DNA of 64,000 nucleotides from Bauldia sp. (GTDB lineage Bacteria > Pseudomonadota > Alphaproteobacteria > Rhizobiales > Kaistiaceae), in the NCBI GenBank assembly GCA_037200845.1, contig JBBCGQ010000001.1:496001-560000 (forward strand), in the 5' to 3' direction. Position numbers and translations under genes: made by a program. The notes beneath the pieces were generated by a model. The model searched no databases, was not told the origin of the DNA, and saw only the letters and a program-made list of their open reading frames with translations. Shown in pieces: positions 30,077 to 63,348 of this stretch; positions within the stretch are counted from its first letter, which is position 1, and each line of letters begins with the position of its first letter.

Positions 30077-30236
30077 GGATAGACACCCCTCCCCAAAACC
30101 GCTGCGCGGTTTTGGCCCTCCCGCAAGGGGAGGGCTCAAGCGGAGTTTGTTGGAACGTGATATTTCAACAGGCCGAACCCTCCCCTTGCGCGAGGGTCAA
30201 ACCGCCGAAGGCGGTTTGGGGAGGGGTGTCTCTCCT
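30077..30236. repeat. 160-bp palindromic intergenic repeat, copy A
   Basis: The outer arms AGGATAGACACCCCTCCCC and its complement (ending GTGTCTCTCCT) enclose two more GC-rich hairpins and a unique centre containing GGAGTTTGTTGG. The inner hairpins are AAAACCGC-TGC-GCGGTTTT and AAACCGCC-GAA-GGCGGTTT. A second copy lies at 42671-42840 in the opposite orientation, matching along its whole length. It fills the gap between polA and the DoxX gene. Confidence 0.85.
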
Positions 30237-42670: not shown

Positions 42671-42840
42671 AGGAGGAGGGACACCCCTCCCCAAACGGCC
42701 TTTGGCCGTTTGACCCTCCCACAAGGGGAGGGTTCATCCTTGTTGAAACACCACGCTCCAACAAACTCCACTTGTTGAGCCCTCCCCTTGTGGGAGGGCC
42801 AAAACCGCATCGCGGTTTTGGGGAGGGGTGTCTCTCCTCC
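42671..42840. repeat. 170-bp palindromic intergenic repeat, copy B (inverted relative to copy A)
   Basis: The arms run from ACACCCCTCCCC (42681) to GGGGAGGGGTGTCTCTCC (about 42838). Inner hairpins are AAACGGCC-TTT-GGCCGTTT and AAAACCGC-AT-CGCGGTTTT. Its reverse complement aligns along its length with 30077-30236, including the central GGAGTTTGTTGGA and TTTCAACA. The hairpin stems differ between copies but keep pairing. Confidence 0.85.
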
Positions 42841-43410: not shown

Positions 43411-43613
43411 GCTTACCTCTCCCTGAGGGAGAGGGCTTTGAGCCTTATGAGCGAAGCGAATTAGGCGAAAAGGGTGAGGGGTTAGGGACAGGCGTTTTGA
43501 GCGATGGGCCCCTGACCCCTCCTCCCTTCCTCCCTTCCTCCCTTCCTCCCTTCCTCCCTAGGCTTACTTCGTTCGCCAAGTTCGGAAGCCCTCTCCCTCA
43601 GGGAGAGGTGACT
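43411..43613. repeat. Inverted pair of CCTCTCCCTGAGGGAGAGG repeats flanking a tandem repeat
   Basis: The gap 43354-43662 holds no gene. CCTCTCCCTGAGGGAGAGG at 43416-43434 continues with GAGCGAAGCGAATTAGGCGA. The mirror unit ending CTCTCCCTCAGGGAGAGGTGAC at about 43612 includes TTCGTTCGCC. The two units face each other around a tandem repeat at 43520-43558. The family also occurs upstream of queG. Confidence 0.75.
43520..43558. repeat. Tandem octanucleotide repeat, about 5 x CCTCCCTT
   Basis: An uninterrupted polypyrimidine run of an 8-bp unit repeated almost five times, ending in CCTCCC. Such runs vary in length by slippage and can form triplex DNA. It lies 105 bp upstream of the LysE-type exporter start. 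Confidence 0.88.
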
Positions 43614-46300: not shown

Positions 46301-46408
46301 GATCCTCCCCCGCAAAGCGGGGGAGGGGGACCGCCGAAGGCGGTGGAGGGGGCGGCCCCCTCCGTCGGCGCTGCGCGCTGCCCCCTCCCCCGTAAATGGG
46401 GGAGGATC
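46301..46408. repeat. 108-bp palindromic repeat inside the acpXL operon
   Basis: The arms GATCCTCCCCCGCAAAGCGG (46301) and its counterpart ending GTAAATGGGGGAGGATC (46408) enclose ACCGCCGAAGGCGGTGG and a GGCGCTGCGCGC hairpin. It fills the only sizeable gap of the operon, between fabF1XL and adh. It resembles copies A and B in building plan but with shorter spacing. Confidence 0.75.
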
Positions 46409-61034: not shown

Positions 61035-61135
61035 GGCACCCTCGATTATGGCTGGCCGGAAATTTGGCGGCACAATAGCGATTTTGGGCTACTCCGCCAG
61101 TGGGCCGGGGCGCCCGGACGTTAAGGATTGGCAGG

Positions 61136-62152
61136 ATGGACGGACCACGGTTCTGGGACAGGGAGCGCCACGCCGACCGCCGGCCGTACCTGCTTTTCCG
61201 CAACCGCACGGTGGCGGCGCTTCGCAATGTGTTTGAGGCGGAAGGCTTCGTCGAGGTCGATACCGCGGCGCTCCAGGTGTCGCCGGGCAACGAGACGCAC
61301 CTCCACGCCTTCGCCACCGAGATGATCGGCACCGGCGGCGCCCGCGTGCCGCGCTACCTGCACACCTCGCCCGAGTTCGCGATGAAGAAGCTGCTCGCCG
61401 CCGGCGAGGAGAAGATTTTCACCTTCGCCCACGTTTTCCGCAATCGCGAGCGCACGGCGCTCCACGCGCCCGAATTCACGATGGTCGAATGGTATCGCGC
61501 CAACGCGCCCCACGAGACCATCATGCAAGATTGCCTGACGCTGTTGCCGGTGGCGGCCGACACGCTGCGCTGGCGCGGCCGCGAGGCCGATCCGCATGCC
61601 GAGCCGGAAGTCCTCACCGTCGCCGAAGCCTTCGCCCGCCACGCCGGCATCGACCTCGCCGCGACGCGCGGCGATCGCGATCGTTTCGCGAAGGTCGCCG
61701 GCGTACGCATCGCCGCCGACGACACGTGGTCGGACATCTTCAGCCGCGTGCTCAGCGAAAAGATCGAACCCAATCTCGGCATCGGCCGCGTCACGCTGCT
61801 GACGGAATATCCGGTGAGCGAAGCCGCACTCGCCCGCGCCAAGCCCGGCGATCCGTCCGTCGCGGAACGCTTCGAGCTCTACGCCTGCGGCGTGGAACTT
61901 GCCAACGGCTTCGCCGAGCTCACCGACGCGGCCGAGCAGCGCCGCCGCTTCACCGCCGACATGGACGAGAAGGCGCGTATCTACGGCGAGCGCTGTCCGA
62001 TCGATGAAGACTTCCTCGCCGCCCTCGCGCACATGCCGCCGGCCAGCGGCGTCGCGCTGGGCCTCGACCGGCTGGTGATGCTGGGCAGCGGCGCGACCGA
62101 TATAGATCAGGTGCAATGGACCCCGGTGGATGCCACCGGGCTGGAGCAATGA
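61136..62152 (+). CDS. epmA: EF-P lysine ligase EpmA (PoxA/GenX)
   Basis: 338 aa, class II LysRS-like enzyme without an anticodon-binding domain. It attaches (R)-beta-lysine to EF-P. Motif 1 region is ALRNVFEAEGFVEVDTAAL, motif 2 is FTFAHVFRNRERTALHAPEF with TMVEWYR, and motif 3 is SGVALGLDRLVMLGSGATDI. Substrate-pocket residues lie in ELYACGVELANGFAELTDAA. ATG 61136 is well spaced from AAGGA; longer frames are unconserved. The stop overlaps the epmB start by 4 bp (ATGA). Confidence 0.95.
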   Translation: MDGPRFWDRERHADRRPYLLFRNRTVAALRNVFEAEGFVEVDTAALQVSPGNETHLHAFATEMIGTGGARVPRYLHTSPEFAMKKLLAAGEEKIFTFAHVFRNRERTALHAPEFTMVEWYRANAPHETIMQDCLTLLPVAADTLRWRGREADPHAEPEVLTVAEAFARHAGIDLAATRGDRDRFAKVAGVRIAADDTWSDIFSRVLSEKIEPNLGIGRVTLLTEYPVSEAALARAKPGDPSVAERFELYACGVELANGFAELTDAAEQRRRFTADMDEKARIYGERCPIDEDFLAALAHMPPASGVALGLDRLVMLGSGATDIDQVQWTPVDATGLEQ

Positions 62153-63348
62153 CGATGCTGGATGAACAAACGCGGGCACCCAACCTCCCCCTTGAGGGGA
62201 GGTCGAAGGTCGCCGATCGCAGCGATGGCGAGCTTCGGGAGGGGGGCGGGCCGGTTGAGCGAAATACCCCCTCCCGAAATCGCTCCGCAATTTCGACCTC
62301 CCCTCATGGGGGAGGTTTGCCCGGCCGTGCGACCCTCCGCCGTCCCGCCGACCTCGCCGCCGCCGATCTCATCCCGCCAACCGACGTCGCCGCACTGGAG
62401 CAGGTCGCCGCCCGCTACGCCGTCGCCATCACGCCCGCGATGACGGTGCTGATCGACCCTGCCGACGCCGGCGACCCGATCGCGCGCCAGTTCGTGCCCG
62501 ATGTCAGCGAACTACACACCACGCCGGACGAACTCGCCGACCCGATCGGCGACGGCGCCCACGAGGTGACGCCCGGGCTGATCCACCGCTACCCCGACCG
62601 CGTGCTGCTGAAGTTCGTGTCCGCCTGCGCCGTCTACTGCCGCTTCTGCTTCCGCCGCGAGAGCGTCGGGCAGGGCGATGGCCTGTCGCGCGCCGAACTT
62701 GCGTCCGCGCTCGACTACATCCGCGCCCACTCCGAAATCTGGGAGGTCATCGTCTCCGGCGGCGATCCGCTGATCGCCACGCCGCGCCGCCTCGCCTCGC
62801 TCGTCGCCAACATCGCCGCGATCCCGCATGTGAAGATCGTGCGCTTCCACACGCGCATCCCGGTCGTGGCGCCCGAACGCGTGACGCCCGAACTGATCGC
62901 ATCGCTGAAGGCCGACGGACTGACGCCGTGGGTCGCGATCCACGCCAACCATCCGCGCGAGTTGACGGCGGAGGCGCGCGGCGCGCTGGCCCGCCTCGCC
63001 GATGCCGGCATCCCGCTGGTCAGCCAGACCGTGCTGCTCCGCGGCGTCAACGACGATGCGGCAACGCTCGCCGCGCTGATGCGCGCCTTCGTCGAGGCGC
63101 GCGTGAAGCCGTACTACCTGCACCACGCCGATCTCGCGCCGGGCACCGCCCATTTCCGCACGACCATCGACGAGGGGCAGGCGCTGATGCGGGCGTTGCG
63201 CGGCACGCTGTCGGGCATTGCCCAGCCGACCTACGTCCTCGACATCCCCGGCGGCCATGGCAAGGTGCCGATCGGCCCGACATATGTCGGCGAGCGCGAG
63301 GTGAAGGATCCGGCGGGCGCGACGCACGTCTATCCGCCAGAGGCGTGA
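62149..63348 (+). CDS. epmB: EF-P beta-lysylation protein EpmB (lysine 2,3-aminomutase family)
   Basis: 399 aa radical SAM enzyme converting alpha-lysine to (R)-beta-lysine for EpmA. The cluster motif is CAVYCRFCFRRES (CxxxCxxC), SGGDPLIATPRRLASLVANI follows, and the PLP lysine is in DIPGGHGKVPIGPTY. Conserved sequence begins around LRRPADLAAADLIPPTDVAA. Before it, residues 12-57 are translated from a palindromic repeat (62182-62318) and have no counterpart in the family (about 340-350 aa). The start ATG 62149 overlaps the epmA stop. Confidence 0.94.
   Translation: MTMLDEQTRAPNLPLEGRSKVADRSDGELREGGGPVERNTPSRNRSAISTSPHGGGLPGRATLRRPADLAAADLIPPTDVAALEQVAARYAVAITPAMTVLIDPADAGDPIARQFVPDVSELHTTPDELADPIGDGAHEVTPGLIHRYPDRVLLKFVSACAVYCRFCFRRESVGQGDGLSRAELASALDYIRAHSEIWEVIVSGGDPLIATPRRLASLVANIAAIPHVKIVRFHTRIPVVAPERVTPELIASLKADGLTPWVAIHANHPRELTAEARGALARLADAGIPLVSQTVLLRGVNDDAATLAALMRAFVEARVKPYYLHHADLAPGTAHFRTTIDEGQALMRALRGTLSGIAQPTYVLDIPGGHGKVPIGPTYVGEREVKDPAGATHVYPPEA
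62182..62318. repeat. Palindromic repeat inserted within the coding region of epmB
   Basis: The arms AACCTCCCCCTTGAGGGGAG (62182) and the mirrored CGACCTCCCCTCATGGGGGA (from about 62294, ending at 62318) enclose GGTCGCCGATCGCAGCGATG and GAAATCGCTCCGCAATTTCG hairpins. It resembles the intergenic repeats of the window, but here it is translated as part of EpmB. Confidence 0.8.

Follow-up and report, generated by a model that had tools for sequence, protein, structure and literature searches.

REPIN-RAYT pairs consist of two inverted repeat units with preferred spacers, together with a nuclease gene, that of a Y1 transposase, bracketed by the same units. What becomes of a conserved protein when a palindromic repeat is found in frame within its gene? 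The literature describes in-frame palindromic repeats in Rickettsia and Wolbachia as well as in several free-living species (PMC10969869, PMC4224334, PMC3733652), the free-living cases being listed in PMC3733652, and further small-repeat cases are described in PMC5896051 and PMC2759123. Nearly half of the Rickettsia palindromic elements (RPEs) of R. conorii are in frame in genes according to a review (PMC10969869), and Di Nocera et al. 2013 (PMC3733652) attributed many N-terminal REPs to start misannotation, the repeat itself being untranslated; all of this is cited from the accessible portions of these papers. Palindromic insertions that are translated are known chiefly from the obligate intracellular Rickettsiales, whereas the putatively translated insertion described here lies in an epmB-like gene of Bauldia sp., of the Hyphomicrobiales family Kaistiaceae, whose genomes measure 3.0-7.1 Mb.

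The epmB insertion adds a further example to a known phenomenon, in-frame REP and RPE insertions having been published. Like the Rickettsia and Wolbachia palindromic elements, as far as the available parts of PMC10969869 and PMC4224334 describe them, the epmB repeat is a dispersed palindrome that stands in frame in a conserved protein without destroying it. The initial annotation was correct as to the fact of the insertion and for the most part in its interpretation; the resemblance to RPEs in another order of bacteria, which it had proposed, holds for behaviour, and no membership by sequence is claimed. Unlike the RPEs, it is found outside the Rickettsiales, and 3 of 112 screened places are in frame in conserved genes, far from the half approached in R. 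conorii. With the GTAG/CGTC-tagged REPs, in the accessible text of PMC3733652, the A and B types of repeat found here have in common short units that form hairpins, dimers whose units point in opposite directions, a location mostly outside genes with some copies in frame, and several families per genome. However, the A/B unit ends carry no GTAG or CGTC tag, judging by eye from the alignment and flanks, each unit has two hairpins, and the genome is without a RAYT match. The likeness to REPIN-RAYT pairs lies in dimers with preferred spacing and in a nuclease gene between the same units, but the bracketed gene encodes a DUF559 protein of the PD-(D/E)XK type and not a Y1 transposase. DUF559 as a possible partner of the repeats is the new lead to come out of this locus.

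The window analysed, a 64,000-nt stretch of the Bauldia genome, contains epmA (genX) at 61100..62152 on the plus strand and, overlapping its stop, the epmB-like gene at 62149..63348 (+), whose product is a radical SAM protein resembling lysine 2,3-aminomutase, with a repeat-encoded N-terminal extension. The gene would start at ATG 62149 or ATG 62155: the epmA TGA at 62150-62152 overlaps the first of these (ATGA), and a candidate ribosome binding site, GGAG at 62143..62146 (+), lies 2 nt 5' of ATG 62149 and 8 nt 5' of ATG 62155. The frame is open to 63348, with the conserved part of the enzyme at 62329..63345 (+). Identification of the protein as EpmB was only partly sustained. It scores 505 bits with TIGR03822 (AblA_like_2; cut-off 396) and misses the cut-off of the EpmB model TIGR03821 (278 bits against 369), and the name is based on position beside epmA and an EF-P-like ORF, the latter recognised by eye. 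The TIGR03822 match starts at residue 63 of the 399-residue ORF, which places the repeat-encoded part outside the family. In an AlphaFold model made with 30 aligned sequences, residues 1-59 have pLDDT below 50 and the remainder forms a confident fold (pLDDT 69-98 by blocks of ten). The low confidence in the insert stems partly from the absence of aligned sequences there, and a single-sequence model was uninformative (mean pLDDT 37); with these reservations, the repeat-encoded residues are probably a floppy, disordered tail.

The palindromic element between the start codon and the first conserved residues, initially described as 137 bp long, occupies 62182..62317 (136 nt, AACC...GGTT) and is read in frame as about 45 residues. 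Its layout is that of an A unit, a short spacer and an inverted A unit, head to head, the units being of about 50 nt. Unit 1 (62183..62244, +, 62 nt) has a longer second hairpin, and unit 2 (62268..62316, -, 49 nt) matches covariance model R1 with an E value of 3.4e-12, the model having been built with this unit among its members. The RNA of 62140-62340 is predicted to fold at -111.7 kcal/mol (z -5.5), as good a value being reached by 0 of 200 shuffles. The element DNA has at least 45 matches in the 3.15-Mb genome (40 of 68 candidates scored), a count that covers both strands and may include one place twice, and the covariance model, made from 33 units, finds at least 150 unit matches (150 of 2330 candidates scored). 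Together with seven units added by hand these 150 make 157 units in 112 places, 68 of them single, 43 paired and one triple. Spacing in the 35 "-+" pairs is clustered, with a coordinate difference of 42-43 in 17 and of 33 in seven. The proposal that such repeats are insertional is supported by the dispersal of at least 150 units and by in-frame copies in cobN and mtaB; the queG case that had been advanced alongside was looked for briefly and not located. No target site duplication could be resolved in the flanks of 42 dimers, for which there was no empty site for comparison.

Subfamilies B, C, D and E, read by eye, are alike in plan, with a CCTCCCC-type hairpin, a second hairpin and a G-rich end. 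Two B-type dimers lie between genes in the window, at 30086-30226 and 42684-42828, following a polA-like and a response-regulator-like ORF, respectively; a D-type pair is found at 43415-43610, and a C-type pair at 46303-46407 is partly in an open frame just 5' of an alcohol-dehydrogenase-like ORF (all three ORFs recognised by eye). At Rfam gathering thresholds the window yielded two tRNAs and nothing else.

Very probably, a REP-like dimer has inserted in frame in the epmB-like gene at a permissive site and is translated as a disordered tail, with the enzyme fold kept. The dimer would have entered after the start codon and ahead of the conserved part with the frame preserved, translation would begin at the old epmB start, still coupled to epmA through the overlapping ATGA, and the ribosome would read through the repeat, adding its residues to an enzyme that retains its fold. 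The inserted repeat may itself be a gene-less copy of an element in which inverted units stand around a DUF559 gene. We infer tolerance from the intact conserved regions; there was no other genome of the genus in the comparison, so the empty epmB site has not been seen.

Is the repeat in fact translated? The frame through it is open, and use of a downstream start, which the initial annotation had named as grounds for refutation, depends on a single codon, TTG 62317..62319 (+), the sole in-frame ATG/GTG/TTG between the repeat and the conserved part. Ribosomes might restart there, leaving the repeat untranslated and the palindrome as an intergenic RNA structure controlling epmB. The TTG is in frame with GGAGGT before it, N-terminal REPs of other bacteria are often non-coding (PMC3733652, in the portion available), and in three relatives (G007, G008 and G009) the epmA coupling is lost and a later start is apparently used. 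We nevertheless hold a restart at the TTG to be unlikely, because its GGAGGT directly abuts it, with 0 nt spacing, within a predicted stem, because the epmA/epmB ATGA overlap is retained, and because no later start offers an escape in mtaB or cobN of the same genome or in epmB of the relative G004. Translation of the epmB repeat is likely, since ATG 62155 is the better spaced start, with GGAG at 8 nt, and since the mtaB and cobN copies have no alternative. It is not proven: the TTG remains, and there is no peptide evidence.

To find other coding insertions of the same repeat, all 112 places were put through a screen that used a codon model, trained on sequence of the window, and required at least 40 open codons 3' of the repeat, so that repeats at gene ends go uncounted; an earlier codon-frame screen, using flanks of 50 codons, lacked the power to detect the cobN copy and was replaced. 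The repeat was open in 423 of 672 frames, 26 of which had a coding-like 3' side of at least 40 codons. Three places proved to be in frame within a conserved gene: that in epmB, one in mid-cobN (G000:C1:2084326-2084472) and one at the start of mtaB (G000:C1:146018-146065). At the others among the 26 the repeat apparently lies 5' of a gene start or in a shadow frame, as judged by eye. The cobN gene (G000:C1:2083015-2086800, minus strand) also has, some 360 residues before the A-type copy, an in-frame C-type unit, and so holds two different palindromic repeats in two loops. In mtaB the sole in-frame ATG/GTG/TTG ahead of the conserved part is a GTG 5' of the repeat, the next in-frame start codon being an ATG that lies 51 nt inside the conserved part; from the sequence, this copy must be translated provided that MtaB is made whole.

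Have the repeats become adapted to translation? Nothing suggests it, since they are no richer in open frames than shuffled sequences: at two-unit places 3.14 of six frames are open, against 3.86 in dinucleotide shuffles, and avoidance of stops was rejected as an explanation. The peptide read from the first arm is N-L-P-L-x-x-R-S-K in all four proteins concerned, EpmB, CobN, MtaB of this genome and the MtaB of G004 described below. We draw no inference of selection from this shared frame: the A consensus is open in only two of its three sense frames, and such agreement is expected about once in eight by chance.

All 28 family genomes compared have the enzyme. In 27 of them, the Bauldia genome included, the interval between the epmA stop and the conserved part was measurable (G010 was the exception). 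This distance is 11-83 nt in 21 of the 27 and 179 nt here, and no in-frame copy of the epmB repeat was seen by reading at this site in the other 26 measured genomes; these measurements bear on the second ground for refutation named in the initial annotation, relatives that have the same extra sequence and lack the repeat. The six longer spacers belong to this genome, G004, G006, G003, G008 and G007. Strongly folding in-frame inserts occur in this genome (z -7.1), G004 (z -6.6) and G006 (z -5.3). The G004 insert is a different repeat, with no in-frame start from +8 to +293 nt and the conserved part beginning at +218; G006 is less telling because of a TTG at the first conserved residues. The long spacers of G007 and G008 contain stops (G007 z -2.4; G008 not folded), that of G008 holding a similar repeat. 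It is also conceivable that the N-terminal extension is ancient and lineage-specific and merely resembles the repeat, epmB N-termini of relatives being short and variable and the in-frame insert of G003, of 45 residues, not being palindromic (z +1.4). We find this hardly credible, as the recurrence is at the level of DNA and not of protein, the element DNA matching many places in the genome that are mostly outside conserved frames. In a wider search of 80 named EpmB loci, 74 could be measured, with a median of 21.5 nt; ten of the 74 exceeded 100 nt, these loci having been read for N-terminal length only and not for repeats.

Insertion of the repeat in the epmB-like gene, the reading we prefer, has counterparts in the other two proteins. 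CobN was matched at E 1e-50 in 24 of the 28 family genomes, and its two repeat-holding loops were readable in 20 and 23 genomes, all 43 loops being multiples of three without stops. In a solved CobN structure (9uk9) the loops have 6 and 9 residues, as against about 38 and 50 in the protein of this genome. Twenty-four of the 43 are at least 100 nt long, and 17 of these 24 fold at z -3 or below (60 shuffles each) and seven do not, whereas none of the 16 loops tested below 100 nt does so. The 24 long loops and the three epmB inserts fall into seven groups by blastn at E 1e-4, which indicates that several unrelated repeat families have entered the same CobN loops; the largest group, of 16 members, may mix types and may in part reflect inheritance. 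Mapping the CobN insertions by alignment column was uninformative, with only four near-complete proteins. The inserts of three relatives are multi-copy in their own genomes, with 82 matches in G023, 40 in G006 and 73 in G004 (both strands), and those in CobN of G001 and G006 contain CGTC-led hairpins on reading. In G004, which belongs to another genus, the start of MtaB holds an in-frame A/A dimer (G004:C180, upstream of 9329), one unit of which was also found by the covariance model; no such dimer is present there in G001, G002 and G005 of the same genus, and in G003 another repeat stands just 5' of the MtaB ATG. On this sequence comparison the epmB N-terminus, the MtaB N-terminus and the two CobN loops are permissive sites that palindromic repeats have entered repeatedly in the family. 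With unrelated repeats at the same protein sites across species, tolerance becomes measurable by comparison. Our literature search yielded no account of this repeat from cobN or from Kaistia.

These recurrent sites, and above all the bracketing of DUF559 genes by the repeats, are the reason to follow up the epmB insertion. DUF559 is a Vsr-like PD-(D/E)XK family that has been treated as Vsr-like repair (PMC12907096); the text of that paper contains no word starting with "palindrom", and its accessible part does not mention flanking repeats. Eight DUF559 matches exceed the cut-off in the genome (G000:C1 366030, 853864, 890035, 977743, 1621894, 1826116, 2211076 and 2849683), and on reading all eight are flanked, on one side or both, by palindromic repeats no more than about 230 nt away. 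Five of them are bracketed on both sides by inverted repeats, three by a + and a - unit of the A or B type 11-37 nt away, one by D-type and one by C-type repeats. For the remaining three, a repeat pair stands on just one side. The A/B brackets meet a MITE-like criterion, a gene lying between inverted units of the dispersed kind, without the gene having been shown to be the mover.

To what extent does this bracketing exceed expectation? A lenient test accepted any left-right repeat at E 1e-3 in 300-nt flanks, and a strict one, chosen after the lenient result had been seen, required inverted repeats on both sides, at E 1e-6 and no more than 150 nt away. The outside set, of public plasmid records, came from one tblastn query, 25 of the 40 listed among its 43 matching records being picked so as to cover many genera; one Sphingomonas strain accounts for three of the 15 alphaproteobacterial plasmid records, and for unannotated outside genes DUF559 identity is a tblastn match only. 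In the lenient test five of eight genes were bracketed in this genome, nine of 15 in the alphaproteobacterial plasmid records, six of seven in Deinococcus and cyanobacteria and one of three in E. coli, Neisseria and Photobacterium (Neisseria, a direct repeat), with shifted intervals giving 10/225 in the plasmid records and 8/207 in the window. The strict test gave 5/8, 9/15, 5/7 and 0/3 for the same sets, a total of 19 of 33 against none of 688 shifted intervals (0/440 and 0/248). With annotated gene bounds the figures were 4/7 against 5/57 (p 0.006) in the lenient test and 7/14 DUF559 genes against 4/111 neighbouring genes (p 1e-5) in the strict one, some of the control hits being neighbours that share a DUF559 flank. 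No DUF559 gene was detected among 179 loci from relatives and from named genomes; those loci had been chosen for other reasons or for repeat copies at the right distance.

Mobilisation by a RAYT was rejected, the genome having no match to the Y1 transposase family (PF01797) at E 0.001, where five of 14 control genomes were positive. DUF559 genes may move the palindromic repeats, an inference that rests on association only. In its full form, to which we give somewhat less than an even chance, DUF559 would be the mobilising partner of a large class of repeats without RAYTs. The complete element would run unit, DUF559 gene, inverted unit, and the 136-bp dimer of epmB would be its gene-less short form; nuclease lineages would pair with repeat subfamilies, and insertions would repeatedly add disordered segments at the same permissive sites. 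A real possibility, if a still more doubtful one, is that DUF559 is an associate and does not move the repeats, either inserting into existing dimers or standing between repeats for some other cause, transcription termination for instance. REPs are known targets of insertion sequences (PMC3733652 and PMC5896051, in their available parts), 14 of the 33 DUF559 genes fail the strict test, those of E. coli, Neisseria and Photobacterium included, and the contrast is weaker with annotated gene bounds. Mere association accords less well with the relationships of the genes within this genome: the two A-bracketed DUF559 proteins are the closest mutual relatives among the eight (69% identity; next best 53%), and all three A/B brackets have the order + unit, gene, - unit, as in the epmB element. 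A repeat-bracketed nuclease family in Alphaproteobacteria, Deinococcus and cyanobacteria offers a testable candidate for what moves such repeats. No earlier report of a DUF559-repeat link was found in a literature search that left most subscription papers and bioRxiv preprints out of its scope.

Two observations concern the placement of DUF559 genes elsewhere. Sphingomonas parapaucimobilis has such genes within its suf operon, where they separate sufB from sufC, and within its transhydrogenase operon, where they separate subunit genes, a placement that looks like insertion into conserved operons. In three Deinococcus species DUF559 stands at different points of the hpa clusters, bracketed by inverted repeats.
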